DNA of 64,000 bases, taken from the IMG/VR virus record IMGVR_UViG_3300037245_001419, positions 1-64,000 of that record; one strand, given 5' to 3'. The notes under the pieces are model-generated. The model did not search any database. It saw nothing but the letters and a program-made list of their open reading frames with translations, and was not told the origin of the DNA. Shown here piece after piece: positions 1,527-57,829 of this stretch (the stretch's first letter is position 1; every line of letters starts with the position of its first letter). The DNA comes from a virus. Position numbers and translations under genes: made by a program.

Positions 1527-4345
<2,819 letters not shown>

Positions 4346-9672: not shown

Positions 9673-9875
9673 GTTCCAATATAATTATTACACCATTCAG
9701 TTTTCCAGCAAGGATCAAAGTTAAATGGATAAAAGAACCACCCACTCTTTTTTCCATGAGGTTCACCATCCATCTCAGGGTCTGGTGTTGCGCATTGAGA
9801 GTGACAGTCACCAGCAACAGATCGTCGTCCCTGGCAAGAATAACACTCGTTACCTATTGTTCTTTCTTCAGCCAT
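9651..9875 (-). CDS. Small cysteine-rich protein
   Basis: 74 aa with CxxC (CYSC) and further cysteines. It resembles a common type of small phage hypothetical protein. Its start overlaps the RlaP gene stop (TAATG) and its end runs into the terminator hairpin. Unknown function. Confidence 0.55.
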   Translation of the reverse strand: MAEERTIGNECYSCQGRRSVAGDCHSQCATPDPEMDGEPHGKKSGWFFYPFNFDPCWKTEWCNNYIGTKKRGAE

Positions 9876-10813
9876 TATGATTTTTCCCTATAAAAATATT
9901 CTTCCATAACACCTACAAGTAGTTTCTCTACTTTATGTCTATCTGGGGTCTCAGGAAATTGAGATGTTAAATAGAGGGTGTCGATATCACTCTGCAGGTC
10001 ACGAGCAAGTTCTATGATGGTTTCATACTTCCATTTGCCCTGACGTATTTCAAGAAGTTCGTCAGCATCAATACCAGTTCGATTTACTATAACTTCACCA
10101 GTCTCAAAGATTTCTTTAGATTGCTTTAACAATCTAATGATATGCATTGCGTGTTTAGTATCGTACCCTACAATCATTTCAGTTTTAAGACGTTCGGGAT
10201 TACGTTTCTCCATGTGATCATTGTAAGCTTTGTAATCAGCTAATTCTTTCTGATAAGTTTTCTCTGCCTTGACTTGTTCGTGCAGACCAGTGGTGAGAAA
10301 CTTTTCCGGTATCGAGAGAATTGCTTTGCTGAACTGTTTAGTATTGTCAGTACTCTCAGGTTTCTCAGGTTTAGCAGGTTTCTTTGTAAGCCAGGACTTG
10401 TGTGACTCCATGCGCTTTAGCTGTTGTGCTGCATAGCTTGTAAAGGTTCTCTTAACTTGATTGGATAAGAACATATATCTGACATCATAAATGTTGTTCC
10501 AGATAGGATCACTTATATCCCAGAAATCTTTAGGTGCAAACAACATGTCCATCATATTGGGGTTATTGTTTACCATAAGCCCGACAGCTTTTTTAATGTT
10601 ATAAATTACGTTATCGGTTTCTCTATCTTCGAACTGCTCGAACTTACGCAGACCGAAGAAATATTCTTTAGGTGGAATTGCTACGCCTTTATAGTCATAG
10701 TCTGAGTCTTCCATGAACGTTCCATACAGTCGTGAACCTGTAAGGGTTCTAAAGATACAATGCTCTTTAGCAATCAGTTTTTCTTTTTCATAAGTTGTTT
10801 CAATCAGATCCAT
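9875..10813 (-). CDS. RlaP-type nucleotidyltransferase (pol beta fold)
   Basis: 312 aa. The N-terminal motif GSRLYGTFMEDSDYDYKG has the GS...DxD signature of the polymerase-beta nucleotidyltransferase family known as RlaP, named for its link to RNA repair operons. A helical C-terminal domain follows. It could add nucleotides to RNA or small molecules; the substrate is not readable. The presence of tRNA-like RNAs, Ro60 and a 3'-phosphatase-like protein in the same window makes an RNA role plausible but unproven. Confidence 0.8.
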   Translation of the reverse strand: MDLIETTYEKEKLIAKEHCIFRTLTGSRLYGTFMEDSDYDYKGVAIPPKEYFFGLRKFEQFEDRETDNVIYNIKKAVGLMVNNNPNMMDMLFAPKDFWDISDPIWNNIYDVRYMFLSNQVKRTFTSYAAQQLKRMESHKSWLTKKPAKPEKPESTDNTKQFSKAILSIPEKFLTTGLHEQVKAEKTYQKELADYKAYNDHMEKRNPERLKTEMIVGYDTKHAMHIIRLLKQSKEIFETGEVIVNRTGIDADELLEIRQGKWKYETIIELARDLQSDIDTLYLTSQFPETPDRHKVEKLLVGVMEEYFYREKS

Positions 10814-13946: not shown

Positions 13947-15002
13947 CTAGTTAAGTATGCCCAGGATAACTGTTCCTACTTCATTTGCCCATGCAACACC
14001 TTTGCCACGAGATAACGTGTAGAATGCATAAAGTGCATAGAGTGAAAGAAGGACAACTGCAGTTTTATAACCTAACTTTTTTAACGAAAGAAATATGAAT
14101 AATAAAACTGCAGTCATACCTAGTAAAAGTATGCGTAACTCTGTGACACCTACATCAATTTTAATAACTGGCTCGTAAACTAAAGTATACACTAACAATG
14201 GTACTCCAAGACATATACATATGTCAAAGATATTTGATCCAACAGCATTACTTACAGCATCATCATAATTTCCTTTCTTAGCATCCTTCATGCTGATTAT
14301 AGTGTCAGGTACACTTGTTGCAGCTGCAGCAATTATAACGGCTATAAAGAACGTAGAGATCTCCCAAATTTTAGCTATTTCGACTACCGAGTATGACATA
14401 ATAAAACATCCAATACCTATTAATACTGTAGATAAGCAAAGGGTTAGCCATGCTTTACTTGTAGTCATGCCATCAAAATCTTCTTCATCTTCATCATCTA
14501 CTTCAGTTTTAGATATTTTATTATGGACAAACAATGTTATTGCGTACATGAAGTATATACCGATTAGTATTGCTCCCATCCACCACTTTAGTTCACCGTC
14601 TTTAAGGAGAAGAATAAGGGCTAGTTCTGCGAGTAAGAAAAAGAATCCATCTCTTATTATAACGGTTTTACTAATTGATATACCTTTGAGGGTAGGTAGC
14701 ATTTTTAATGCTGTAATAATAACTAGACCAGGGATAATAAATGCATTAAACACTGCTGAACCTGCAGTTGTTGCAATACCTGCTGAAAATTCACTACTAC
14801 CATCAGTAGTTGTAAAATAGAATAAGAATAGACATGCAGTCCATAATTCAGGCATAGAGCTGCCTATAGCGTTGATTGATGCCCCTTTAATACCTGGGCC
14901 GAGGTTTCTTCCAAGATAGCTTGAAGCCTCTTCAAATGGGTCGCATGACTTCATTATCCAGATACATCCGACTACTACTAAACTTAACCATAAAAATATC
15001 AT
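13947..15002 (-). CDS. Ca2+/cation antiporter (CaCA family, YrbG-like)
   Basis: 351 aa, about ten membrane helices. Two homologous halves each carry an alpha-repeat: GASINAIGSSMPEL near residue 40 and AAATSVPDTIISM near 225, plus AVGSNIFDI. An acidic cytoplasmic loop (DDEDEEDFDG) separates the halves. It should exchange Ca2+ or another cation for Na+ or K+ across the inner membrane. Transporters of this kind are rare in phages. The Ter genes downstream on the map, which are linked to metal and stress responses, may be functionally related. Confidence 0.88.
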   Translation of the reverse strand: MIFLWLSLVVVGCIWIMKSCDPFEEASSYLGRNLGPGIKGASINAIGSSMPELWTACLFLFYFTTTDGSSEFSAGIATTAGSAVFNAFIIPGLVIITALKMLPTLKGISISKTVIIRDGFFFLLAELALILLLKDGELKWWMGAILIGIYFMYAITLFVHNKISKTEVDDEDEEDFDGMTTSKAWLTLCLSTVLIGIGCFIMSYSVVEIAKIWEISTFFIAVIIAAAATSVPDTIISMKDAKKGNYDDAVSNAVGSNIFDICICLGVPLLVYTLVYEPVIKIDVGVTELRILLLGMTAVLLFIFLSLKKLGYKTAVVLLSLYALYAFYTLSRGKGVAWANEVGTVILGILN

Positions 15003-15658
15003 TAATCGTTTTCCTTATTGTAAAAATCTTTTAGTTGTTGAGTTGATAATGAGGTAATTGTGTATTCATCTGTTGTACTGTCAAACTCTATTTTGCATGA
15101 TAATTTAGGTTTGATTTGCCATTCGTCAACGAGTCCGTATGTTCTATTACCATCTTGTATAACTACGTCTTTAGATACTGTGTCTAATGCATGTAGTTGT
15201 TTTACTAATTCAAAAATACATATTGCATATGTTTCATAGTCATGAATACTTTCTTCTAAATGATCACACTCTTCATAAAATCCTAACATGCTGTTATTAA
15301 TATAAATTTCCCAAACGTTTGGGAATGCCATGTGTACTCGCCAACCTAGTTGCTTGGCGATTGCAGTTATCCTTATAAAGGATTGCATTGTGCTTGGATT
15401 ATTAGGTGTGTGAAGCATGACATAACATTTTTTAGTCGAATGCGATTTAGGTTCTTCACCTTCTTTTGGTTCGTATGAAAATCCACAACATGAAAACTTA
15501 GTTTGAAGACCTAATCTGTGTAGTTCGTATATCAATGGCTTTAATGGTCTGTCTATAGAGTCCCATACTGTTTTTTCTTCGCAGTGATTATTTAATTTTT
15601 TAAGACGTGCTATGTATCGAGCATTTTCAACATTCTCTTTGGTAACAGGTACTGACAT
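15002..15658 (-). CDS. Hypothetical protein with Cys pair
   Basis: 218 aa. The motif KFSCCGFSYEPKEGEEPKSHS near residue 55 is distinctive. The protein looks globular. The TAATG overlap with the exchanger gene suggests coupling. I do not recognise a function. Confidence 0.6.
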   Translation of the reverse strand: MSVPVTKENVENARYIARLKKLNNHCEEKTVWDSIDRPLKPLIYELHRLGLQTKFSCCGFSYEPKEGEEPKSHSTKKCYVMLHTPNNPSTMQSFIRITAIAKQLGWRVHMAFPNVWEIYINNSMLGFYEECDHLEESIHDYETYAICIFELVKQLHALDTVSKDVVIQDGNRTYGLVDEWQIKPKLSCKIEFDSTTDEYTITSLSTQQLKDFYNKEND

Positions 15659-15671
15659 GGGTTTCCTTTGT

Positions 15672-15706
15672 TAAAAAAGGTGTAGTGGTAAGGCCACCAC
15701 TACACC
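15672..15706 (-). terminator. Rho-independent terminator
   Basis: An 11-bp stem (GGTGTAGTGGT / ACCACTACACC) followed on the - strand by six Ts, directly after the TerD gene at 15714. It ends the Ter transcription unit. Confidence 0.9.
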
Positions 15707-15713
15707 AGATCAA

Positions 15714-16295
15714 TTAAGCTGCATCAAGACCGAAATCGCTGCAGATTGCACCGAGATCTTTATCGCTTGACTGTCCTTGAGGATTGAATTTCCAATCACC
15801 ATTATGACGATAGAGTTCACAAACAAGAAGTGAAATTCCAACTGAGTGATCTTCTGAAAGATCAAATTTGAATTTTTCTTCACCGTTTGATTTGTTAACG
15901 AGACGAACATACGCATCACTAACTTGACCGAAGTTCTGACTACGAGAAGCTGCTTCATGAATTGTAGTAATGAAAGCAATTTTTTCGATATTTGCAGGAA
16001 CTTTAGTAAGGTCTACAGTGATAACTTCATCATCACCATCACCATCACCAGTAAGGTTGTCGCCTGAATGAACAACAGACTCACATAATGATTTGAGGTT
16101 TCCGTAGTAAACGAAGCTTTCGTTAGGTACTACTTTGCCGTCAGACCCAATCATGTATGCAGATACGTCGAGATCGAAGTCTACACCAGGTTGCTCTGAA
16201 GGGTTCCATCCAAGAGCTACTTGAAATTCTGTCATTTCAGGAGCATCTTTAGTAAGATTAATTTTTTGTCCTTTGGACAATTTGATAACAGCCAT
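15714..16295 (-). CDS. TerD-family protein
   Basis: 193 aa. The N terminus MAVIKLSKGQKINLTK and the acidic Ca2+-binding motifs (DFDLDVSAYM, SVVHSGDNLTGDGDGDDE) are typical of TerD/TerZ/CABP. The protein is cytoplasmic and likely binds Ca2+. It is the last gene of TerD-TerB-like-TerD, with the exchanger following. The family is tied to tellurite resistance, phage resistance and stress in bacteria; the exact biochemical role is not known. Confidence 0.95.
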   Translation of the reverse strand: MAVIKLSKGQKINLTKDAPEMTEFQVALGWNPSEQPGVDFDLDVSAYMIGSDGKVVPNESFVYYGNLKSLCESVVHSGDNLTGDGDGDDEVITVDLTKVPANIEKIAFITTIHEAASRSQNFGQVSDAYVRLVNKSNGEEKFKFDLSEDHSVGISLLVCELYRHNGDWKFNPQGQSSDKDLGAICSDFGLDAA

Positions 16296-16314
16296 ACTGT
16301 TCCTTTTAAAAGAT

Positions 16315-16345
16315 ATTCGGGATTTACATTTTGCAAATCCCGAAT
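16315..16345 (-). repeat. Intercistronic hairpin
   Basis: An 11-bp perfect stem (ATTCGGGATTT / AAATCCCGAAT) between the TerB-like and TerD genes. The - strand has a modest T-run after it, so it may be a partial terminator or mRNA-stabilising structure. Confidence 0.6.
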
Positions 16346-16379
16346 AATGGTTTATTTAATTAGTTAAGTAACTTAATTA

Positions 16380-16910
16380 TTAAGCTTCTGCTTCAGGAGC
16401 TGGTGTTTCTGCTACAGGAGTCACTTCAGTTTCAGCTACAGGTGCTACTTCAGTTTCAGCTACAGGAGTCACTTCAGTTTCTGCTACTACAGGAGCTGCT
16501 TCTGTTGCTGCTGCTACTTCTTCAACAGGAAGAAGGCTATAAAGTTCGTCAAGAGCTGAATCAATTGAAGTTGCTTTAGCTTTGATGTTCTTAAGAAGAA
16601 GTTGTTCGTTTTCATCCATAGCACCATCACCAGAGATCTGGTCTACAAGGTACTTAGCTTCGATTGCATCAACAACACCAGGTGTTGCTTCGTCAGCGAG
16701 AACGTAGTCAGAAATAGCTTCTACGAAAAGAGTTGTAAAAGTTGGGTCAAATGAACCGCTTACAGAAACTGCATCATTCAATGCGAACAACAAGTCAGCT
16801 TCTTCTTTGTCAATTTTTCCATCTTCATAAATAGCAGTTCTGAGTTGTACTACTTCATCAGCGTCAATTTTGCCATCTGCAAGAATATCTGTTTTTAATT
16901 TTTGTAACAT
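16380..16910 (-). CDS. TerB-like protein with repeat tail
   Basis: 176 aa. Residues 1-125 are helical with DGKID..E repeats (LADGKIDADE, YEDGKIDKEE, SGDGAMDENE) like TerB/TerB-like metal-binding domains. The C-terminal 45 residues are imperfect TEVTPVAE repeats, probably a flexible linker or tail. It lies between two TerD genes. The TerB assignment rests on motif type and context. Confidence 0.65.
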   Translation of the reverse strand: MLQKLKTDILADGKIDADEVVQLRTAIYEDGKIDKEEADLLFALNDAVSVSGSFDPTFTTLFVEAISDYVLADEATPGVVDAIEAKYLVDQISGDGAMDENEQLLLKNIKAKATSIDSALDELYSLLPVEEVAAATEAAPVVAETEVTPVAETEVAPVAETEVTPVAETPAPEAEA

Positions 16911-16978
16911 TATGTTAATCCTTTTCTTTCGTTATGGGACATATTAAACCCTGCCCCGTGTAGGTTATAAAATTTTGA

Positions 16979-17629
16979 TTAGCTTATGAGACCACGAAGT
17001 CTACCGAGGAATCCTGTACCACCGCCAGTAGATTGTGCTGTACGTGGTCTTTCAGAAACAGGAGATCCCCAGTTGTTTTTAACATCAGCTATTGATTTGT
17101 CATATGTTGCCTGACCGAGAGAGTTAAATTTCCACTCACCGTTATGGCGGTAAACTTCACCAATGATCATTGCAGTTTTGTCAGAAAGCTGATCATCAGT
17201 ATCGAGTTTGAAACGAGCAAGTTCTACTTTAGTGTCTGCATCGTATAATGCAACCCAAGAGTTTTTAAGATTGCCGAAAGTCTGCTTGCTACTTGCACAT
17301 CCGTAGATGTTTAAAATGAAACCAAGTTTGTCGATATCCGAAGAAACTTTAGCTAGTGTAACGTCGATGATCTCATTAGGTTTGTTTGCACTGCCACCAC
17401 CTGTCAGATCATCACCATGGTGATGTATAGACCCGTCTCTACTATTAAGGTTACTAAAAGAAACTACTTCTTTAACGGTGTTTCCGGCAAACATTATAAC
17501 TGAAGTATCAAGGTCTATTGAAGAACCTTTACTTTCCTGCCAGCCCATTCCGACTTCAAGTTTTTTAAGTGATGCATGGTCTTTAGATAGGTTAATCTTT
17601 TGACCTTTTGTAAGATTGATAACTGCCAT
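16979..17629 (-). CDS. TerD-family protein
   Basis: 216 aa, first gene of the Ter unit. The N terminus MAVINLTKGQKINLSK and the SIDLDTSVIMF and HHGDDLTGGG acidic sites match the family. A Gly/Arg-rich tail (TGGGTGFLGRLRG) may interact with membrane or nucleic acid. The promoter is at 17672. Confidence 0.95.
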   Translation of the reverse strand: MAVINLTKGQKINLSKDHASLKKLEVGMGWQESKGSSIDLDTSVIMFAGNTVKEVVSFSNLNSRDGSIHHHGDDLTGGGSANKPNEIIDVTLAKVSSDIDKLGFILNIYGCASSKQTFGNLKNSWVALYDADTKVELARFKLDTDDQLSDKTAMIIGEVYRHNGEWKFNSLGQATYDKSIADVKNNWGSPVSERPRTAQSTGGGTGFLGRLRGLIS

Positions 17630-17760: not shown

Positions 17761-17787
17761 ATAAAAATGGCTCCCCATTAGGGAGCC
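17761..17787 (-). terminator. Terminator of the closed tRNA-like RNA array
   Basis: The stem GGCTCCC / GGGGAGCC with a 4-nt loop is followed on the - strand by an ATTTTTATTT run. It lies 2 nt beyond the sixth RNA of the array and so closes a stable-RNA transcription unit that begins at the promoter at 18744. Confidence 0.85.
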
Positions 17788-17789
17788 TA

Positions 17790-17903
17790 TAATCAGACGA
17801 GAGACATACGCAAAGATTTGTTTTTATTTAGGGTTTGAACCTAATAAATTCCGCTTGCTGCTGAATTATTATCCGAAGTATTTGCGTACTGCAGTGCTGA
17901 TTA
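17790..17903 (-). ncRNA. Closed tRNA-like RNA R6 (T arm only)
   Basis: The 7-bp outer helix (TAATCAG / CTGATTA) closes the RNA. UGCA, the 8-mer GUACGCAA and AUACUUCG follow. The 8-mer pairs 8/8 (one G-U) with UUGCGUAU near the 3' end, which is followed by a 9-nt GN8 element as in the other members. The inside has a T-arm hairpin (UUAGG, loop UUCAAAC, CCUAA) but no recognisable acceptor stem or D arm, so it cannot be a tRNA precursor. Confidence 0.65.
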
Positions 17904-17908
17904 ATATC

Positions 17909-17968
17909 AAAACCTGGGAGCAGTTAGTCTTAACGGCTAGAGAAGATTTCACTGCAAGCCAGGATTTT
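17909..17968 (-). ncRNA. Possible small stem-loop between R5 and R6
   Basis: Outer helix (AAAACCTGG / CCAGG-A-TTTT) with an inner GCAGU/ACUGC helix. It contains UUGCA but lacks the conserved UACUUCG, so it may be a degenerate member of the family or a spacer hairpin. Confidence 0.35.
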
Positions 17969-17976
17969 CAATCAAA

Positions 17977-18118
17977 AAATATGGGCAAGAAACAAAAAGA
18001 GTATCTATTACGGAGTCCTATCCAGTTAGACGAACCCCCCTATTTAGGAGCGCACGGGATTCGAACCCGTATTTCCGGCTTGGCATGCGAAGTAACTCTT
18101 ATCTGCAGCGCCATATTT
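17977..18118 (-). ncRNA. Closed tRNA-like RNA R5, permuted tRNA-Gly(GCC)-like
   Basis: Outer helix 17977-17984 / 18111-18118. The 8-mer at 18096-18103 pairs 7/8 with 17994-18001. Inside, in transcript order: anticodon region, T arm, 3' acceptor strand (18047-18053), a loop with U73, 5' acceptor strand (18034-18040, one G-G mismatch) and D arm. Joining ...UCCG to GCAUGCC... would rebuild a perfect CCGGC/GCCGG anticodon stem with loop AUGCCAA, anticodon GCC. U73 is the expected discriminator for tRNA-Gly. This is the best case for a genuinely permuted tRNA. Confidence 0.75.
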
Positions 18119-18124
18119 AAGAAC

Positions 18125-18279
18125 AAAAAAACTGTGGGTAAAAATCAGTTAGAGAGATTTACGTGCTCTTCCAGCTGAGCTAACTCCCTTTGGTTAGTTA
18201 TACAGGGAGTGAATGATTCGAACATCCGACCACGTCGTTAATAGCGAAGTAACTTTAACTTGCAACACCACAGTTTTTT
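18125..18279 (-). ncRNA. Closed tRNA-like RNA R4, permuted tRNA
   Basis: 12-bp outer helix (AAAAAACTGTGG type). The 8-mer at 18253-18260 pairs 7/8 with 18147-18154. The acceptor strands 18183-18189 and 18204-18210 form 7 perfect pairs closed by a short loop. D arm (GCUC/GAGC) and T arm (loop UUCGAAU) are intact. Joining ..ACGU to CGCUAUUAACG.. would give a perfect anticodon stem CGUCG/CGACG with loop CUAUUAA. The A1-U72 pair and G73 resemble tRNA-Trp, but the reconstructed anticodon (AUU) does not agree, so identity is open. Confidence 0.75.
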
Positions 18280-18286
18280 AAAGTGT

Positions 18287-18441
18287 AAAAAATAAGTAGG
18301 AAAGAACCATTTATAGTGAATCTTTCTTCTGCTCTACCAAACTGAGCTACCCCTCGTCGTTATCGAGGGAGGAGGATTCGAACCACCGACCCGAAGCACC
18401 TATTGCGAAGTAACTATTAATTGCATCACTACTTATTTTTT
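18287..18441 (-). ncRNA. Closed tRNA-like RNA R3, permuted tRNA-Pro-like
   Basis: 13-bp outer helix (AAAAAATAAGTAG type). The 8-mer at 18414-18421 pairs 7/8 with 18309-18316. Acceptor strands 18350-18356 / 18364-18370 pair in all 7 positions around a 7-nt loop. The D and T arms (GUAGCUCAGUUUGGUAGAGC, GGGUCGGUGG) resemble tRNA-Pro, and AGG occurs where the anticodon would be, but the loop is shifted by one nucleotide. Confidence 0.72.
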
Positions 18442-18456
18442 TAATTTTTTAAAATC

Positions 18457-32248: not shown

Positions 32249-32415
32249 TTGGTATATACTATTGATATTTGTAGACCGTTGGCGTAGTTTAAAGACCCTG
32301 CTCTTCCGCTGAGCTACACCTTCACCAAGAACTCATTAAGTGCTTGGTGAAGGTGAAGAGATTCGAACTCTCGCATGGGTGTAGAATGCCTAGTCACAAT
32401 CAATATGCGTACCAA
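32249..32415 (-). ncRNA. Closed tRNA-like RNA R8, permuted tRNA with extended acceptor
   Basis: Outer helix TTGGTA / TACCAA. The 8-mer at 32398-32405 pairs 7/8 with 32260-32267. Acceptor strands 32317-32323 / 32349-32355 pair in all 7 positions, and the helix continues past A73-CC into a capped hairpin (ACCAAG/CUUGGU). D and T arms are complete. The anticodon stem GGGU/ACCC would be rebuilt by joining the two halves, and UCU (Arg) lies in the loop. The conserved UACUUCG is replaced by GUGACUAG. Confidence 0.68.
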
Positions 32416-32425
32416 AATCAATCTG

Positions 32426-32586
32426 TGGTGTCAAAAATTTAAATTTAAATCTAAATTTAAGTGTACAATATGTGGGTGTCGCCAATTGCACCACACGGGC
32501 TAGTGTTGTATTAAATGCCCGTGGCTGAGATTCGAACTCACATTTCCCAAAAGGAACTCACTGTACGTCAGATTAAGTTTGCACCA
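32426..32586 (-). ncRNA. Closed tRNA-like RNA R7, permuted tRNA-Leu-like
   Basis: Outer helix TGGTG / CACCA. Acceptor strands 32494-32500 / 32517-32523 pair in all 7 positions and A73 is present. The D arm (UGGUGCAAUUGGCGACAC) and a long variable arm (UUCC/GGAA) are those of a class II tRNA-Leu. The 8-mer pairing is weak (6/8) and CUGACGUA replaces UACUUCG. An AAATTTAAATTT run near the 3' side makes alternative pairings likely. Confidence 0.6.
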
Positions 32587-34420: not shown

Positions 34421-34492
34421 AGACGTAGTGAGATTCGAACTCACGCTGTACGCAGTTTAAGTGCGCTGCCTCTGCCAGTTGGGCTACACGTC
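34421..34492 (-). tRNA. tRNA with anticodon UAA (Leu codon UUA), class I
   Basis: Acceptor GGACGUG / UACGUCU, anticodon stem-loop GCGCA CUUAAAC UGCGU. Short variable loop. Tandem relative of the UAG tRNA; both share GUAGCCCAAC..GGCAGAGGCA. Confidence 0.75.
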
Positions 34493-35381: not shown

Positions 35382-36791
35382 TTAAGCTGCTATGTCCTTG
35401 TAATCGTATTCTTTAACCATATCACCGTCCAGAAAAACCGTCTTGAGCTGATCATCTAAGGTCGGCACATTCGTGGTTTGGTAGTTCCCTTCTGGGTCAA
35501 GAGTTAGGTATTGAATACCTTTCTTGGACTTTTTTGTTGAATCCAATGGATCTTTTTGAATATCATACCATTTACCATCTCTGCACTGGGCTGAGCATTT
35601 AAATGCGCTTCTCTGAGTATCACGATCAATTCCTTTTTGAATCAATCCTCCACCCATTCCGAAGCATAGATTTTCACCAGAGAAACCAAGATCTTTTACG
35701 AGTTTGAGGATAATATTGATATCTTTACGATTCAATCCATCTCCCCATATCACACCGATCTTAGGGTTCAATACTTTATACCCTTTCGAGTTTAATTTAG
35801 TACCATAACTCTTTTCGAGTGATAATAATATGTAAGGAATTACCTCATTATAATCACCCGAATCTGGCCGTACAACAACTTTACCGTCTCGTTTGAGAAT
35901 CAGTTGTTTGTATGTTTGACCTATAATTACGTCAACAAATTTTTTGTAATTATAGCTGTCACATACTAATGATAATATACCCTTATCATATTTGGTAATA
36001 ATTTTACCTGTACGTCTACTCTCACCTTCTCTACCTTCAGAAGTCGCTACGCTGTGCTCTGTAGCGTGTACAGAGTATGCGTTGACGTGCTTAGTGTTAT
36101 AGTAATCCCGTATGGTCTTAATAGCACTAAGGTTGTCTGTACCCCAGAAATTGATTAAGTGAGCTGCACCACCCCAGCTAGAGGAGTAGTGGTTAGTTCC
36201 ACCTCTATATTCAAATCCATGCAACATGAATTTAATTACAGAGTCGATTTTGTCATCATCACAAGTTTCTTCAAGATGCTTTTGGTAGTCTTGTTTAACC
36301 ATGTAACTCAATGTTGCTACCGTTGTGGTGTGCCAAACGTGAGTCAATATATCTTCTACGTGGCCCACGAGCCATGCGCAATTAGGGTCAGTATTAATAA
36401 CATCAAACAATACGTTCGATGCTGGTACTAAAGATCCCTCCGCTACAGCTTTAATTCTAATGGGTAGTCTACCGTCATATTTGTCTAATATATATTCCCA
36501 TCTTTCAATGTCAACGTGAGTTAACCCGTCAATAAAGTGAAACTCCAATATTTCTTTAGCTTCCTCAATGTGTTCTCTCGTTACGACAGAGCCAGTTAAG
36601 AAGCGCTTAATGAATATCTGCAATCCGAAAAATTTAGATACAGGAAATTGAGCACCATCACGGTTCTCAAAATAACTGTAAGCATATTCGGTATTATCGG
36701 GATACATCCCGTGGTGAGTCATTTTATATGAGTCCGATGCTAATATCGGATTGAAGTCTGGGTCATAAAATTTCTTTCTAATTGCAACCAT
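35382..36791 (-). CDS. nadV: Nicotinamide phosphoribosyltransferase
   Basis: 469 aa, the normal NAMPT length. N-terminal DSYKMTHHGMYP, central GFEYRGGTNHYSSSWGG, ATEHSVATSEGREGESR with the active-site histidine, and C-terminal GIGRDT-like and RSAFKCSAQ. It converts nicotinamide and PRPP to NMN. With the adjacent NadM-Nudix gene it can rebuild NAD+ from nicotinamide released by NAD-degrading defences. Confidence 0.95.
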   Translation of the reverse strand: MVAIRKKFYDPDFNPILASDSYKMTHHGMYPDNTEYAYSYFENRDGAQFPVSKFFGLQIFIKRFLTGSVVTREHIEEAKEILEFHFIDGLTHVDIERWEYILDKYDGRLPIRIKAVAEGSLVPASNVLFDVINTDPNCAWLVGHVEDILTHVWHTTTVATLSYMVKQDYQKHLEETCDDDKIDSVIKFMLHGFEYRGGTNHYSSSWGGAAHLINFWGTDNLSAIKTIRDYYNTKHVNAYSVHATEHSVATSEGREGESRRTGKIITKYDKGILSLVCDSYNYKKFVDVIIGQTYKQLILKRDGKVVVRPDSGDYNEVIPYILLSLEKSYGTKLNSKGYKVLNPKIGVIWGDGLNRKDINIILKLVKDLGFSGENLCFGMGGGLIQKGIDRDTQRSAFKCSAQCRDGKWYDIQKDPLDSTKKSKKGIQYLTLDPEGNYQTTNVPTLDDQLKTVFLDGDMVKEYDYKDIAA

Positions 36792-36800
36792 ATTTTCCTC

Positions 36801-37730
36801 CTAACTCTTTAACGAATTTAATAGGGTTTTTATTAAATATTTGTGTTCTTCAACAACGTCCGATTCTTTAATAGTGTCAATGTCAAACCAACGAAGTTCA
36901 TCAATATCGTCTCTAGCGTCAGGACGACCAAAAGTATAATCAGCTACGAATAGCGTTGAATATATTTTGTCCCGTTCATTCCGGTATCGCCAGTCGTTTA
37001 TTAAAAAACTTGCAAGATACTTTAGATTGCCAACTTCAAGAGTTGTCTCTTCCTTCACTTCTCGTCTTGCATTGATTTCAAGGAAATCACCTTCAAGAGC
37101 GTTGGTATCAGGATCGAGGAACCCACCGACAAATCTAAATTTACTTTGATGTGGTTTTCTGCCAAGTAGCAAGCGGTTGTGTTTTCTATCTATGATAGCA
37201 ACATCAACTGCGCCAAATGCAGTAGGGAATCTGTTGTTGGCATTCCATATAGCACCAGCTCTCCAATCTGAAGAGTTAATGACTTTATAGGATGCGTTTC
37301 TTCTTTCACTCGTACCGGATGTATAAGACTCCTGTATTAGCTCTACCACTGGGAATAATCCCAAATAGTAAGGTTTAAAAGATTCTCTACTTCCATAGAG
37401 AGTTACTTCTGCTAACGGTGGTGTGTTATACTTAATCAAACTATCTAATTTCTTTGACCAACCTTTGTTAGTAGGTTGATCATCATTATATAGAATTTGA
37501 ATATCTGGATAAGCTTGAGATATCATTTGTCGTCTGCTCTCAATATCTAGAGGGTTTTCAGATCCTCCCGACACTGGTGCAGCACCTAGAACACAAATGA
37601 CTTTTTCATGACGGCCAATAACTGTTTCAATTATATCACGGTGTCCTTGAGTAAGATCCTTGACCTGGAATCTCCCAATGATAACACCTATACCTTTTAT
37701 TTCGATTGTCTCTTCTTTACTGAGTAACAT
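36801..37730 (-). CDS. nadM: Bifunctional NMN adenylyltransferase/Nudix (NadM-type)
   Basis: 309 aa. N-terminal nucleotidyltransferase with GRFQVKDLTQGH near residue 19 (HxGH-type site in the form QGH) and SGTSERRN near 165. C-terminal Nudix box GGFLDP...REVKEETTLEVG near 210-240. It adenylates NMN to NAD+ and the Nudix domain may hydrolyse ADP-ribose. First gene of the two-gene NAD+ salvage operon, with GGAGG upstream. Confidence 0.92.
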   Translation of the reverse strand: MLLSKEETIEIKGIGVIIGRFQVKDLTQGHRDIIETVIGRHEKVICVLGAAPVSGGSENPLDIESRRQMISQAYPDIQILYNDDQPTNKGWSKKLDSLIKYNTPPLAEVTLYGSRESFKPYYLGLFPVVELIQESYTSGTSERRNASYKVINSSDWRAGAIWNANNRFPTAFGAVDVAIIDRKHNRLLLGRKPHQSKFRFVGGFLDPDTNALEGDFLEINARREVKEETTLEVGNLKYLASFLINDWRYRNERDKIYSTLFVADYTFGRPDARDDIDELRWFDIDTIKESDVVEEHKYLIKTLLNSLKS

Positions 37731-38299: not shown

Positions 38300-39076
38300 T
38301 TATAATGTTATGATAGCTCCCTTGCGGACAAATCCCATGAAGCCATCACAATTTGCTTCTTTGCTTTTGTTCTCAAAATCTTCGATAATATTATCTTGAT
38401 AATGATACAAGTGCATTTTATTTTTAACTTCTTCCGGTAATTGCTTTAGCTGATTATAATGAGCGTGAACACCAGATTCATATGGTGCAGTTTCACAGTC
38501 ATGGAAGATATAATCAGCTTCTTTGTAGAATGCCATCATTGAAGATTCGGGAGCGTACTGACAATCAGTTGTAAAGTAAGCTCGTTTGTCTTCTTCGGTT
38601 GACCACATTAAACCATAGCTTGGTACATGCTTATACTTGTTTGTTATGTGCAGTGTTTGTACTGCATCAAAGCTGATACCATTCCAATTAAATGGATGGT
38701 TGACTTCGATGGGCATAACTTCAAAGTATGTATCAAGTGTAGCTATCTTACCTTGTAGGCTTTCCATTCCACCTTTAAGAGATAACCACAAGTCTGATAT
38801 TAATGCCTTCTCAATAAAGAGTTTTGGTCTATCAACATTTGGTGTGAAATAGGTAGTAAATCCTAACCATTCAAGTCCACCTATATGATCACCGTGAAGG
38901 TGAGATACATAAACCGCATCAATATCAGAGAATGTAAAGCCACACTTATCAGCGCTGAATCGTGTATCACTACCACAATCAATAAGAAAGTTCTTATCAT
39001 TATGAGTTAACATTGCTGCAGACTGATAGTTTAGTAATGTGAAAGCGTTTCCAGAACCTAAAAATTGTAATTTCAT
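38300..39076 (-). CDS. MBL-fold hydrolase, RNase Z-like
   Basis: 258 aa. FLGSGNAF start, metal motif SHLHGDHIGG near residue 58, then TTDCQYAP and FHDCE for further ligands, and the C-terminal HLYHYQD. This layout matches the RNase Z/phosphodiesterase branch of the metallo-beta-lactamase fold. RNase Z trims tRNA 3' ends. It lies 5 nt from tRNA-Lys within the tRNA region, which supports but does not prove an RNA role; the exosite arm is not obvious. Confidence 0.78.
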   Translation of the reverse strand: MKLQFLGSGNAFTLLNYQSAAMLTHNDKNFLIDCGSDTRFSADKCGFTFSDIDAVYVSHLHGDHIGGLEWLGFTTYFTPNVDRPKLFIEKALISDLWLSLKGGMESLQGKIATLDTYFEVMPIEVNHPFNWNGISFDAVQTLHITNKYKHVPSYGLMWSTEEDKRAYFTTDCQYAPESSMMAFYKEADYIFHDCETAPYESGVHAHYNQLKQLPEEVKNKMHLYHYQDNIIEDFENKSKEANCDGFMGFVRKGAIITL

Positions 39077-45794: not shown

Positions 45795-45867
45795 AGCGGA
45801 GGGTAGGATTTGAACCTACGGACTCTGGCTTATGAGGCCAGCAAGCGACCGGACTGCTCTTCCTCGC
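45795..45867 (-). tRNA. tRNA(CAU), possibly initiator-like
   Basis: Anticodon stem-loop CUGGC CUCAUAA GCCAG. The D-arm sequence GAGCAGUCCGGUCGCU resembles bacterial initiator tRNA. The acceptor stem pairs imperfectly. Confidence 0.75.
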
Positions 45868-45943: not shown

Positions 45944-45950
45944 AATAATT

Positions 45951-46105
45951 AAAAATGTGGTAAAGGGTAACATGACTGATTTATTTTAAACCGCCACCAA
46001 ATAGACATTATCCACTTAGTGGCGGTTCCTGGATTTGAACCAAGATATTAACATTAGAATTGTTTTTTTTATCCGAAGTAAGTCAAATTTGCAACACACA
46101 TTTTT
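45951..46105 (-). ncRNA. Closed tRNA-like RNA R10, D arm missing
   Basis: 9-bp outer helix (AAAAATGTG type). The 8-mer at 46082-46089 pairs 7/8 (one G-U) with 45969-45976. UUACUUCG present. Acceptor strands 45989-45995 / 46021-46027 pair in all 7 positions and continue as a 10-bp capped helix. The T arm is good, but no D arm follows the 5' acceptor strand, so it cannot give a normal tRNA. Confidence 0.7.
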
Positions 46106-46120
46106 AAAAATGTTTAAAAT

Positions 46121-46290
46121 AAAAAATATGGTAAAAATCATCATAACTGAATTTGAATTGCCTCTACCAATTGGGCTATTTCCCCACCGGATAGACAGAA
46201 TCTACCAGGTGGGGAAACAAGGAATTGAACCTTGATTTCTTTCATGTTAATGAAAAACGAAGTAAGTCACAATTGCAACGCACATTTTTT
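46121..46290 (-). ncRNA. Closed tRNA-like RNA R9, permuted tRNA with extended acceptor
   Basis: 10-bp outer helix (one G-U). The 8-mer at 46266-46273 pairs 8/8 (three G-U) with 46140-46147. UUACUUCG and a 9-nt GAUUUUUAC element present. Acceptor strands 46179-46185 / 46211-46217 pair in all 7 positions and extend into a long capped hairpin. D and T arms present, plus a UUUCA/UGAAA hairpin before the T arm. Its 5' strand overlaps the last codons of the HNH gene. Confidence 0.7.
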
Positions 46291-46908
46291 ATAATATTTT
46301 TTTCTTTGTTTTCTACCGTTTTTATTTCTGGATTTATATGTTAGTGTTAATGAATGACAATTAGGGCATAATAATCTTAAATTATCTTCATTATTATTAT
46401 TATAATCACCGTCAATATGATCTATATCTAATGGTATTTTTCCATCAGAAGGGTGTTTTTCATCCCATCCACATTGACAGCATTTACTATCATATTTTTC
46501 AAATATGTATCTTCTTATATGGGCAGATAGATTATATTCACCTCTAAGCCCGTTATGATTTCCACATTTCCATTGTAATAAAAACTGTTGGTGATAATAA
46601 TCATTTTTACAATCAATATCACAAAACTTTTTTTGGGTTGTCAATTTTGTATTGCAGTGTAGACAGAATTCCAATATATTTTCATACCCATGCCTTCTAA
46701 CGCCCTTATTATTAAATGACGCTGAACAACTATGAGAGCAAAATTTATTGGATCTCTTTTCGAATGGTAGTTTACAACTACACTGTTTACATAAATTGGG
46801 AGTCTCCAAATAATTTAATTTAAATAATCTTGTTTTTTCTTTGCAAGTTACTTTAGTTTTTATTTGAGCGGCTTTCCACCCATCAGTTTTAGTGCAATCT
46901 GTTTTCAT
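46267..46908 (-). CDS. HNH endonuclease with zinc fingers
   Basis: 213 aa. Two N-terminal Cys clusters (CKQCSC..FCSHSC, CLHC..FCDIDC) then the HNH core CCQCGWDEKHPSDGKIPLDIDHIDGDYNNN..NLRLLCPNCHS. A typical free-standing homing nuclease. Its 3' end overlaps R9 by 24 nt, which suggests insertion next to, or homing at, the RNA gene. Confidence 0.88.
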   Translation of the reverse strand: MKTDCTKTDGWKAAQIKTKVTCKEKTRLFKLNYLETPNLCKQCSCKLPFEKRSNKFCSHSCSASFNNKGVRRHGYENILEFCLHCNTKLTTQKKFCDIDCKNDYYHQQFLLQWKCGNHNGLRGEYNLSAHIRRYIFEKYDSKCCQCGWDEKHPSDGKIPLDIDHIDGDYNNNNEDNLRLLCPNCHSLTLTYKSRNKNGRKQRKKYYKKCALQL

Positions 46909-54661: not shown

Positions 54662-57600
54662 TTAAATATGTGTCAATGTACATGATCCACCGGAGCAAGC
54701 TACATCTTCACTAATTTTTGTGTTATCTTTATCTTCATTGAACTCATCCCATGGGACTTCAACATATTCTCTACCAACGTCACACCAGGTTTTCCAGGCA
54801 TCTACATCTTTTAAGCAAAATGTCATTTGTCTTTTGTCACCATTGAAATAGTTGTTAGCAAACTTGTCGGCTCTCTTAACCCACATTTGTTTTTCAAGTA
54901 TCTTGGTTAGTTTATCGATAGAATCAGGAATCTCACTGTTTTGAATGTCGGGGATTTCTAGTTTCTCACCGATACCGAGATACGAGTCACAGGCTGCATA
55001 TAAGTTTTTATCAAATGCGTTCTGTGCATGGATAATTAATCCTGATGCAAATACCGAAGCATCACCGTACATGTCTACGAGTTCTTTAGGAGTGTATACG
55101 GTTTGGAAAGGAGCTTGAGGATAAATCTTATCCCCTTCCTGAGGAAGAAGAGAAATACCTGCAAAAAACTTACGGTTGTAGTAGATGTATTCAGCTACCG
55201 TTTCCCATTCACCTTCGAGAATATTGATTGTATTAGATACATTGTGAGAAAGAGACGGATGAGCACATAGCTCTTGGTTCTTCCCTTCATCTACCCAGTT
55301 AACCCAAGTTGATTTGACATTTTCTAATAGGCTAAGAGCGTTAATATCGTTCTTGGTTCTTGCCTGAGATGGAACTTCACATAGGAATGAGATTACATCG
55401 GTTACTCCGTTAGTATCCCAAACAGACTTTTCTATAGCCCTGGGGTTATACTTCTTGAAAAACTGAAGTGGCTCTTCCTGGTTATTACATTGAACCCTTC
55501 TAATATATCTCTTGGCATGGTTTGGGTGAATACCAGATGCACCAGTAGATAGGATAATAGAAGATGTGCCAGATGGTTTAACAGTGGTTGTTCTTGCTGC
55601 TTGATTGATACCGATCTTAGCTGCGATCTCTTTATTAGTATTCTTAACTACCTGAGCAGCGAGACGCTGATTTGTAGGGTCTAAAACAATATCAGGGTTG
55701 TCTTGCATGCCTGTGATAGATACACCTAATAGAGCCTCCTTAGCAACGATCTTTTCGGTGATCTCGCCAAGGTATGGGAAGGATGAGTAAGATGCCTGGA
55801 ACGTACCTAATATGGCTGCTGCTTTAGCTGAATCCATGAAGTCTTCAAGAGTTTTACATTTTTTTGCGTTGATCTCAGATAGGTTGCAAAACTCAACACC
55901 TGACTTACCAGATTCAACGTCTACAGGGTATAAGCCAATTTCAGCGCAAGGATTGTACCCAATCTCAGTAGAGTCGCTGAATATAAATCCGGGTTCACCA
56001 TATTCTTTAACTGAAGTAATTATTTCTCTAAATTCTTCTTCTGTCGTTTCATCTCTGATTAATAAGACTGAGTTGTTGGCTCTACCTCTTTGTGGGTTCT
56101 CGATAAACCATTTGCCAGTTTTACAGTTTCTCATTTCCATGTCATCTTTTGAGAATAAGCTGATAAGTGCTGCTCTTCTAATTCCACCTGAAACTACAGC
56201 GTCTGCAATGTGACAAATAATATCATGAACTTGGAGCGTTGATAGTTTTTTACTTCCATCATTAAGAGCTGTATAAAATATCTTTTTAATATGGTCTATA
56301 GTTCGTCTGAGACCGTCTGGGCCTGGTGCTTTTGATCCGCTTGATTTTATAATGGCTCCGGCAGGTCTTATGTCTGAGTAATCAAATAAAACATTGTATC
56401 CTGACCATTCTGATTTGCACACGAAGAAAGATTCTACTAATACACCAATTGCATCTGCCCACCCTTCGATAGAGTCTGGAATGGTATATGTTATGTTCTC
56501 GCCTTTTCTTTCATGTTGAATCTTCGGTAATTTTTTAATGTGATGTTTCTGTACGCTATAACCAACACCACAACCACATAAAGCCATATACATGGTTTCT
56601 TGGAATGTTCTTATTCTATCTGCATAATGAAATGCACAATTTCCAGTGACTATACCGTTTGGCATAACAAAAGATTTATTATCATCGACTTCCAGGCACC
56701 ATACTGTTTCAGAGCAAATATTTTCCTCAATATCTGTCACTGACCATGAAGGTGAAAATTTATTAATATCAGTATTTATGCTGAATTTTTTAGCATATAA
56801 TTTGCCGTAATTAGTGTCTTTTATGATGTCAGATTCTGAGTTTATATATACGCCAACAACAGGGAAAACTTTTCTAATAAATTCTTGAGCTTTATCATCG
56901 GAATTTTGTATGGTCTTGAATATAGATCCAGTGCCGTCTTTAGAATAATTTCTATTCTTTTCACCGTCAGCATCTAAAAACCCTCTAACAAACGCTCTTA
57001 AAATATTTATGTCATCAATATTAGGATCTGGCAGTGTTTTTAAGTATGTTCCTGTGTATGCCATATAGTCACCATTCAAGCTATTGCTAGTGCTAGTTTT
57101 AAAGTTTAATTCTTCAAACCGATATTTGTATTTTATTTTTTCTGCACATAGTCTTACCATTGAATAAGTGTGGTTGCCATCTTTATTTTTTAGTGTTGTA
57201 CCATCACCGTATATAAAGCCATATGACCAATATAGTCTCTCATCTGGTGTTGCATCGTCATAATTCCAGTCATTAAAAATATTTGGCCGTTTATATAACT
57301 TATCTTCTATTTTCAAATTTTCTGTCCTACTGCCATCATTTAGTATCCATGTATGATTTTCAGTAGCGTATACTCGTTTAGAACCTCTTCCATTTTTTAA
57401 GGTTATTTGATTTATGTTTTGTTTACCGTAGCTTTTAACTATGGCATTTTTCCATTCACCTGTATGTGTTAATACTTTTGTTTTATCACCATGACTAAAA
57501 TCATAAAATGATTTTACACCATTTATTGTTATGAATTCAGTATCGATCCTGAAGCAGTTGTATATACGTGCATTGTGTTTCAGTGTCGCATCACCACCAA

Positions 57601-57829
57601 ACTGAAGTGCTCGTTGCGAGCCAAGTACTCGTTTTTTCATAAGCATATCTTTAGCAAATGCCCACTCATCTTTAACATTTTCGAAAACTTCCAAGCTCTC
57701 TAAATGCGTCTTGTGCATATCCATCATTCGATCAACCTGTTCTTTCCAGGATTCCCTTCTCTGTTTCTCTGGTAAGTATCTTGAATACTTTGATATACGT
57801 GTAAATTCTGATAATTCCTTTATGCTCAT
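54662..57829 (-). CDS. nrdJ: Class II ribonucleotide reductase with intein
   Basis: 1055 aa: an N-extein of 91 aa, an intein of about 306 aa (residues 92-397) and a C-extein of 658 aa. The spliced product (about 749 aa) matches B12-dependent reductases: NCAFHYADRIRTFQETMY, CGCGVGYSVQKHH, NPCAEIGL, VKPSGTSSIILSTGASGIHP and a C-terminal Cys pair region (CSGGSC). It makes deoxynucleotides from ribonucleotides without oxygen, so replication could run aerobically or anaerobically if cobalamin is available. Confidence 0.92.
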   Translation of the reverse strand: MSIKELSEFTRISKYSRYLPEKQRRESWKEQVDRMMDMHKTHLESLEVFENVKDEWAFAKDMLMKKRVLGSQRALQFGGDATLKHNARIYNCFRIDTEFITINGVKSFYDFSHGDKTKVLTHTGEWKNAIVKSYGKQNINQITLKNGRGSKRVYATENHTWILNDGSRTENLKIEDKLYKRPNIFNDWNYDDATPDERLYWSYGFIYGDGTTLKNKDGNHTYSMVRLCAEKIKYKYRFEELNFKTSTSNSLNGDYMAYTGTYLKTLPDPNIDDINILRAFVRGFLDADGEKNRNYSKDGTGSIFKTIQNSDDKAQEFIRKVFPVVGVYINSESDIIKDTNYGKLYAKKFSINTDINKFSPSWSVTDIEENICSETVWCLEVDDNKSFVMPNGIVTGNCAFHYADRIRTFQETMYMALCGCGVGYSVQKHHIKKLPKIQHERKGENITYTIPDSIEGWADAIGVLVESFFVCKSEWSGYNVLFDYSDIRPAGAIIKSSGSKAPGPDGLRRTIDHIKKIFYTALNDGSKKLSTLQVHDIICHIADAVVSGGIRRAALISLFSKDDMEMRNCKTGKWFIENPQRGRANNSVLLIRDETTEEEFREIITSVKEYGEPGFIFSDSTEIGYNPCAEIGLYPVDVESGKSGVEFCNLSEINAKKCKTLEDFMDSAKAAAILGTFQASYSSFPYLGEITEKIVAKEALLGVSITGMQDNPDIVLDPTNQRLAAQVVKNTNKEIAAKIGINQAARTTTVKPSGTSSIILSTGASGIHPNHAKRYIRRVQCNNQEEPLQFFKKYNPRAIEKSVWDTNGVTDVISFLCEVPSQARTKNDINALSLLENVKSTWVNWVDEGKNQELCAHPSLSHNVSNTINILEGEWETVAEYIYYNRKFFAGISLLPQEGDKIYPQAPFQTVYTPKELVDMYGDASVFASGLIIHAQNAFDKNLYAACDSYLGIGEKLEIPDIQNSEIPDSIDKLTKILEKQMWVKRADKFANNYFNGDKRQMTFCLKDVDAWKTWCDVGREYVEVPWDEFNEDKDNTKISEDVACSGGSCTLTHI
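56639..57556 (-). mobile_element. Intein with LAGLIDADG homing endonuclease
   Basis: Starts at Cys92 after ARIYN and ends at GN before Cys398. Block B TENHTW, block F/G SETVWCLEV...MPNGIVTGN with Cys+1. Two dodecapeptide motifs YGFIYGDGT and VRGFLDADGE near residues 202-210 and 281-290. All residues for splicing appear present. It disrupts the nucleotide-binding N-terminal region, so activity depends on splicing. Confidence 0.92.

Follow-up and report, generated by a model that had tools for sequence, protein, structure and literature searches.

The R5 unit of this virus genome is, with a probability that we place at about 0.88, a YrlA-like Y RNA of phage origin, one of an array of such units that would have a transcript of its own and would be bound by the phage Ro60 (Rsr) homologue encoded next to it. 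The window, that is, the whole stretch of DNA analyzed here (64,000 bases), corresponds to bases 1-64000 of a 211,777-base IMG/VR virus record. The Ro60 gene, the array, its motif and closing stems, the covariation of the tRNA-like module and of the broken anticodon stem, and the genomic linkage among them were obtained by computation; the coordinates are given in Table 1.

Table 1. Ro60 gene, Y RNA-like units, and associated signal-like sites in the window.
Feature	Coordinates	Strand	Description
Ro60/Rsr homologue, 567 aa	18804..20507	-	TROVE + vWA_Ro60; immediately upstream of the array, same strand
Promoter-like site TTGACT-17-TATAAT	18744..18772	-	Just upstream of R1; 11/12 consensus matches, TG before the -10
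R1	18632..18723	-	Y RNA-like, without tRNA module; 15-bp closing stem; motif 18686-18705
R2	18451..18614	-	Permuted T-arm/acceptor/D-arm module with GCAA acceptor cap; 21-bp closing stem
R3	18287..18441	-	Classic YrlA arrangement: outer helix CUUC/GAAG, without anticodon loop; 13-bp closing stem
R4	18126..18279	-	Complete anticodon arm CGUCG-CUAUUAA-CGACG (anticodon AUU); 12-bp closing stem
R5 (the finding)	17977..18118	-	Y RNA-like, complete anticodon arm CCGGC-AUGCCAA-GCCGG (anticodon GCC); 8-bp closing stem
R6	17910..17968	-	Degenerate unit; CCTGG/CCAGG stem, TGCA without TACTTCG; from sequence only, low confidence
R7	17790..17903	-	Y RNA-like, T-arm only (TTAGG-TTCAAAC-CCTAA); motif exact 17874-17893; 7-bp closing stem
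Intrinsic-terminator-like hairpin	17769..17787	-	GGCTCCC..GGGAGCC + ATTTTTATTT, array end; 8 pairs, 6 GC
Second site, unit 1	46119..46292	-	Permuted module; motif exact 46258-46277; 12-bp closing stem
Second site, unit 2	45949..46107	-	T-arm + acceptor stem, without D-arm; motif exact 46074-46093; 11-bp closing stem

The protein encoded upstream of the array matches the Pfam families TROVE (E = 1.8e-25) and vWA_Ro60 (E = 3.7e-9), the residues of its intact metal site (D385, S387, S389, T457, and D481) are invariant in 15 relatives, and its best PDB matches are the solved TROVE chains 9l5y and 9kop (E = 2e-15), for which reasons we regard it as a Ro60/Rsr homologue; a match to DUF7788 (E = 2e-7) was also obtained. 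The gene is followed by about 1 kb without any minus-strand gene, and this interval is the array, with at least 6 Y RNA-like units and one degenerate unit. The motif TGCA-N9-TACTTCG occurs exactly 8 times in the window, always on the minus strand (6 copies in the array and 2 at 46.1-46.3 kb), and no copies beyond those eight were found with zero mismatches in the whole 211.8-kb record. All eight clear units have perfect closing stems of 7-21 bp around the motif, and these stems set the unit boundaries. The array looks like a separate transcript, since a promoter-like site lies at one end and a terminator-like hairpin at the other; because the counts of promoter-like and terminator-like sites in the region are not above those in shuffled sequence, the promoter argument is one of position and score.

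On the minus strand, a perfect 8-bp stem (AAATATGG/CCATATTT) closes R5; the exact ends of this stem (17977 and 18118) had already been given as the limits of the unit by the sequence-only reading, and R5 carries an exact copy of the motif at 18088-18107. Inside the closing stem, the elements of a tRNA follow one another in permuted order: TTCGC-ATGCCAA-GCCGG comes first, then V (AAAT), the T-arm (ACGGG-TTCGAAT-CCCGT), the acceptor 3' strand (GCGCTCC), a short acceptor loop (TAAATA) whose initial U is position 73, the acceptor 5' strand (GGGGGGT), TC, the D-arm (GTCT..GGAC), and finally T-CCG. The acceptor stem contains one G-G pair. The sequence-only reading had proposed that R5 would become a proper tRNA-Gly(GCC) if its halves were joined, and the anticodon arm that it described is there: CCG joined to GC yields CCGGC/GCCGG, a perfect 5-bp stem around AUGCCAA, with A32, U33, the anticodon GCC, A37, and A38 in the loop, and R4 likewise yields a perfect stem, CGUCG/CGACG around CUAUUAA. 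The joining by splicing, in contrast, is not needed, as the unspliced R5 RNA forms that 5-bp stem too when the fold is constrained. With only the T-arm, acceptor stem, and D-arm imposed (ViennaRNA), the hairpin GC[AUGCCAA]GC abuts the module-closing helix CGGA/UCCG, so that pairs 26-44, 27-43, 28-42, and 29-41 come from the D side, which thereby supplies bases 27-29 of the anticodon stem, and pairs 30-40 and 31-39 from the side of the Y motif. On this model, the anticodon stem of R5 is complete without joining, its 5' strand being broken. The unconstrained minimum free energy (MFE) fold of R5 differs and lies 3.7 kcal/mol below the closed-module fold; across the five window units, closed-module folds are 0-3.7 kcal/mol from the MFE, and within 0-1.6 kcal/mol for the four besides R5.

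Because shuffled flanks permit such an arm in 3%-6% of trials, the arm of R5 is weak evidence when taken singly, and its weight comes from the family. Our test took k bases after base 26 (D side), completed them with 17-k bases of the strand that precedes the T-arm, and called an arm when 5 pairs closed a 7-base loop with U33 and a purine in position 37. R5 passes at k = 3 and R4 at k = 2 or 3 (bases 27-28 coming from the D side), whereas R2, which has no canonical anticodon loop, R3, and the 46.2-kb unit fail. At k = 2, an arm was obtained for 24 of the 57 units that carry the motif and come from Ro60 loci, compared with 0.1 when letters are shuffled and 6.7 when flanks are dealt among units; after clustering at 80%, 17 of 48 non-redundant units have the arm (mean 3.7 and maximum 10 in 2000 deals). 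Both break-spanning pairs are present in 17 of the 20 units with an inner hairpin versus 6.2 in dealt sets, and they occur as CG, UA, UG, GC, and AU; because these pairs covary, the two strands are expected to meet in the folded RNA. When the loop was left unfiltered, 25 units had five pairs at k = 2, and these show U33 in 24 cases and A37 and A38 in 22 cases each. A second search, with the pattern TTACTTCGANTNNNAATCGAG and the anticodon positions left free, gave 46 matches in viral contigs and 38 in bacterial genomes, of which 29 and 26, respectively, precede a full permuted module, with Ro60 inside the fetched flank in 24 viral and 19 bacterial-genome cases; the bacterial carriers include Bradyrhizobium, Streptomyces, planctomycetes, and others. 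The arm is thus far above chance family-wide, and the earlier remark that it is hard to explain as a pure decoy holds insofar as a chance decoy is concerned. It is non-obligatory, since it occurs in 2 of the 5 full modules of the window and in about one-third of the family.

The anticodons are diverse (GUU, GAU, GCU, UGU, UCU, AUU, UUU, and others). U36 is in excess, being found in 13 of 22 loops of the unselected set and 43 of 55 of the pattern set, compared with a fraction of 0.37 in the ordinary tRNAs of the same loci. Across loci L005-L210, the Y RNA anticodon loops show a strong bias toward U36-A37-A38, that is, toward anticodons for ANN codons (t6A class).

Circularly permuted tRNA genes exist in red algae and archaea, and R5 resembles them in the order of its parts (3' half, intervening sequence, 5' half) and in its complete anticodon arm; it differs in that splicing is unneeded, in its Ro60 linkage and Y stems, and in the acceptor stems of its relatives, which are often capped by a tetraloop. 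Were R5 a genuine gene of this kind, its transcript would be cut at the anticodon-stem break, ligated to a circular or a joined molecule, and provided with ends made in the acceptor loop, giving a functional tRNA-Gly(GCC). Rotation of R4 and R5 to linear order does rebuild all four tRNA arms, ARAGORN calls a tRNA in 75 of 77 arm-bearing units rotated in the same way, and a few caps read NCCAT, as though a CCA end had been retained. The agreement between U73 and tRNA-Gly(GCC), which the sequence-only reading had pointed out, is true of R5 but is a single case; across the family, 39 of 76 units have a base 73 that suits the isotype of their anticodon, versus 25.6 with shuffled bases, related units being non-independent. 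Yet the arm forms unspliced, the conserved lower stems and motif would have no use in a tRNA gene, and other units of the array have no module or no anticodon loop. The acceptor ends, moreover, are often capped by UUCG or GNRA-like tetraloops (UNCG or GNRA caps in 13 of 77 units), which would be a poor substrate for tRNA end-making, and the conserved Y RNA motif, the closing stems, and the Ro60 neighbor recur in R5 and its relatives. Fragments of Salmonella YrlA went undetected under tRNA-cleaving conditions (PMC7790460). Neither RtcB nor an RNA ligase of family PF09414 was found in the 211.8-kb record; the PF09511 search was uninformative, its control having stayed silent. A spliced permuted tRNA gene was accordingly rejected as the main reading, on the grounds of the unspliced arm, the Y motif and stems, and the Ro60 linkage, and we consider it highly improbable; what stands of the permuted-tRNA proposal is a circularly permuted tRNA-like structure with a real anticodon arm.

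That the units are decaying debris of tRNA genes in a tRNA-rich phage region could be suggested by R6 and R7, which are partial, and by module remnants of varying completeness. This account is scarcely credible in view of the covariation, the perfect closing stems, the exact motif, and the Ro60 linkage in dozens of contigs.

The assignment of R5 and its siblings to the YrlA type of Y RNA was assessed with Rfam and with a model of our own. At the gathering threshold, Rfam gave no YrlA match in the window. A permissive search placed YrlA (RF02553, Y RNA-like) on R2-R5, all below the gathering score of 69, in alignments that comprise the T-arm, acceptor 3' strand, short loop, acceptor 5' strand, and D-arm within an outer helix. 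R3 is the best unit (35.8 bits, E = 7e-6), and its outer helix runs straight into the Y stem, as that of the Rfam consensus does; R2 and R4 score 29.3 and 28.3 bits, respectively. The match of R5 (16.2 bits, E = 3.2) is non-significant alone, so its family membership rests on its neighbors, motif, and stems. Phage relatives reach 47.9 bits, also sub-threshold. Because all scores stay under 69 bits, we file the units, from sequence, as a divergent YrlA type and not as members of the Rfam family. They share with YrlA an adjacent Ro60 gene, a permuted module with covariation (R2-R5 and the 46.2-kb unit), and a long end-joining stem.

In an alignment of 19 units, 85.6% of the pairs of the permuted module are standard versus 59.0% in shuffled controls, all seven acceptor pairs change on both sides, and the covariation score was reached by 0 of 500 shuffles. 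Covariance model R1 was trained on these units, including R2-R5 and the 46.2-kb unit; the scores of R2 (79.5 bits), R3 (99.5 bits), R5 (73.2 bits), and the unit at 46119..46292 (61.1 bits) are non-independent because the model was built with them. The second unit of that site scores 32.3 bits (E = 1.4e-4). Modules of at least 50 bits were found with model R1 in 38 of 79 viral loci fetched solely for their Ro60 gene, a few of which overlap contigs used for the model, and 46 of the 47 module matches lie on the strand of the Ro60 gene. A module detector run without the motif gave 29 spurious matches in 20 random 64-kb sequences, for which reason all later module counts demand the motif or the covariance model. 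Matches of model R1 at 34446, 39865, 45373, and 45667 were discarded as ordinary tRNAs in tandem, the T-arm of one being joined to the D-arm of the next. An exact scan of viral contigs for GTTGCAA-N8-TTACTTCG returned 22 matches without Ro60 or module, which is the chance level, and was likewise set aside.

Two further minus-strand stretches of the window, 32278-32409 and 32440-32565, contain permuted T-arm/acceptor/D-arm modules without TACTTCG (38.6 and 21.6 bits) and are possibly divergent Y RNAs; in the former, ACCA/UGGU lengthens the acceptor stem.

In related phages, YrlA-like units adjoin TROVE genes in Rhizobium phage RHph_Y65 and Streptomyces phage pSt2308 and DUF2828 genes in Vibrio phage BUCT194, Enterococcus phage EfsSzw-1, and Klebsiella phage KP2025. 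The phage DUF2828/DUF7788 proteins (L015 4383-5825, L016 3340-4872, and L017 1259-2689), which adjoin YrlA-like modules, align with Ro60 over 421 columns (hhalign, E = 1.7e-18), and by sequence comparison DUF2828 looks like a Ro60 relative with Y RNAs of its own. In the RHph_Y65 locus (L011), Y-type flanks at about 3930-4060 surround a tRNA in the ordinary, non-permuted order D-arm/anticodon/T-arm (Rfam tRNA, 33.8 bits at 3980-4043). Some acceptor caps (L182, L183, L196, L201, L209, and others) read N-CCA-T or N-CCA-C, as if the modules had arisen by trimming of tandem tRNA copies within the anticodon stem.

YrlA, which acts together with Rsr and polynucleotide phosphorylase (PNPase), has a stem and a tRNA-like domain similar to the D, T, and acceptor arms (PMC8394870); its crystal structure, 6CU1, can be superposed on tRNA by circular permutation (PMC11472068). 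The R units are like YrlA (RF02553) in the adjacency of the Ro60/Rsr gene and in the permuted T-arm/acceptor/D-arm module, with an outer helix above the Y stem. Where the Rfam consensus has a 3-nt spacer, however, R4, R5, and about one-third of the relatives have an anticodon loop, and the phage array, unlike YrlA, has about 7 units, module-less and T-arm-only forms included, with scores below gathering. Listeria phage CKA15 encodes a putative Rsr beside highly transcribed RNAs that were proposed as Y RNAs (PMC12282133). The window resembles it in that a phage Ro60-like gene adjoins small RNAs, which are abundant in CKA15; the CKA15 RNAs are Y RNAs by proposal, whereas in the units of the window the tRNA-like module was identified by sequence and covariation. 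The rsr-yrlBA-rtcBA RNA repair operon of Salmonella (PMC7790460) also has Ro60 with several Y RNAs downstream, one of them a tRNA mimic; in place of the RtcB of that operon, the window has a nucleotidyltransferase of the RlaP family.

We infer that the array is transcribed, is bound by Ro60, and acts as a decoy or handle. The lower part of R5 (closing stem, UGCA-N9-UACUUCG, and second stem) would be the Ro60-binding part, and the upper part would fold, unspliced, as a circularly permuted tRNA in which a loop caps the acceptor stem. The 5' strand of the anticodon stem would be interrupted where the Y stem enters; most relatives have this break after base 28, R5 after base 29. Bases 26-29 of the D-side strand and bases 30-31 of the Y-motif strand would together pair with 39-44, so that a normal anticodon loop of 7 bases is displayed. 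The most likely role of such a Ro60-Y RNA particle may be that of a near-complete tRNA mimic that serves as handle or decoy for proteins binding the tRNA elbow and anticodon loop, with tRNA-modifying enzymes, tRNA-decay RNases, and host anticodon nucleases as candidate targets. Ro60 and the stem would gate or tether RNA quality control, and the phage Ro60 particle would present a set of different tRNA mimics, of which some have an anticodon loop.

Two roles of the tRNA-like part have to be weighed within the Y RNA reading. The part may serve purely as an elbow-shaped handle or tether, e.g., for PNPase or modification enzymes, with the anticodon arm inherited from a source tRNA and unused. Classic YrlA works without an anticodon loop and, per review, is a modification substrate of DusA and TruB with a link to PNPase (PMC8394870), and R2, R3, and many relatives have no loop; the retention of the loop in unrelated phages and bacteria, with covarying pairs across the break, and the bias of positions 36-38 to UAA speak against a pure handle, which we nevertheless consider a realistic option, if short of an even chance. 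The loop is kept in unrelated lineages together with covarying break-spanning pairs, and we therefore suppose some selection on it. The units may instead be baits, either competing for host anticodon nucleases or being cut by them, and so spare phage and host tRNAs. Full arms with diverse anticodons, the 23 tRNA genes, tmRNA, and RlaP (RNA repair class) of the window, and the suggestion that YrlA competitively inhibits an anticodon nuclease (PMC7790460) fit such a role. The proposal is nonetheless pure inference, and Salmonella YrlA, although of a type without the loop, was no substrate of the nuclease (PMC7790460); we consider this role less likely than not. A broader conjecture is that whole-tRNA mimicry, with a functional anticodon loop on a broken anticodon stem from which the Ro60-binding stem departs, marks a widespread subclass of Y RNAs in phages and bacteria, and that the phage arrays, with their different anticodons, are multi-target baits for anticodon nucleases; this strikes us as rather unlikely.

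Phage Ro60 and phage Y RNAs are already known (PMC7824862, PMC12282133), and mycobacteriophage-encoded Y RNAs are on record as well (cited in PMC12282133). Neither the Rfam consensus nor the accessible literature other than the primary YrlA papers shows a Y RNA with a complete anticodon arm; in that literature, YrlA is described as mimicking the D, T, and acceptor arms alone (PMC8394870). Within that scope, Y RNAs with an anticodon arm are an apparently undescribed variant. If many bacterial Y RNAs do carry a true anticodon loop on a conserved broken stem, the candidate partners narrow to readers of the anticodon arm, and single-base changes in the loop would be a direct test of the purpose of the tRNA-like part. 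Mimics of this kind would, if true, give tRNA-rich phages an unexplored means against tRNA-targeting defences. A caution also follows for annotation, as tRNA finders miss such RNAs or misread them as permuted tRNA genes.

Several other features of the window were recorded. The tmRNA (22846-23195, minus; tag ANNTFAVAA) adjoins tRNA-Arg(UCU), and a tRNA with an apparent CAU anticodon at 45795-45867 (minus; Rfam, 46 bits) was missed by ARAGORN. The RNA repair pathway nucleotidyltransferase of the RlaP family is encoded at 9875-10813 (minus; E = 5e-22). The minus-strand stretches 35382-37730 and 38300-39076 encode a NAMPT/NAPRTase and NUDIX pair (NAD salvage) and an Apyc1-like anti-Pycsar protein (E = 9e-29), and the ribonucleotide reductase at 54662-57829 (minus) has a weak intein-splicing match under the Pfam cut-off. 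Beside the Ro60 locus, at 13947-17629 (minus), lie a sodium/calcium exchanger gene and two genes with a TerD domain; one of the latter, at 16979-17629, shows a TTGACT-type promoter-like site (17700-17672) like that at the array.
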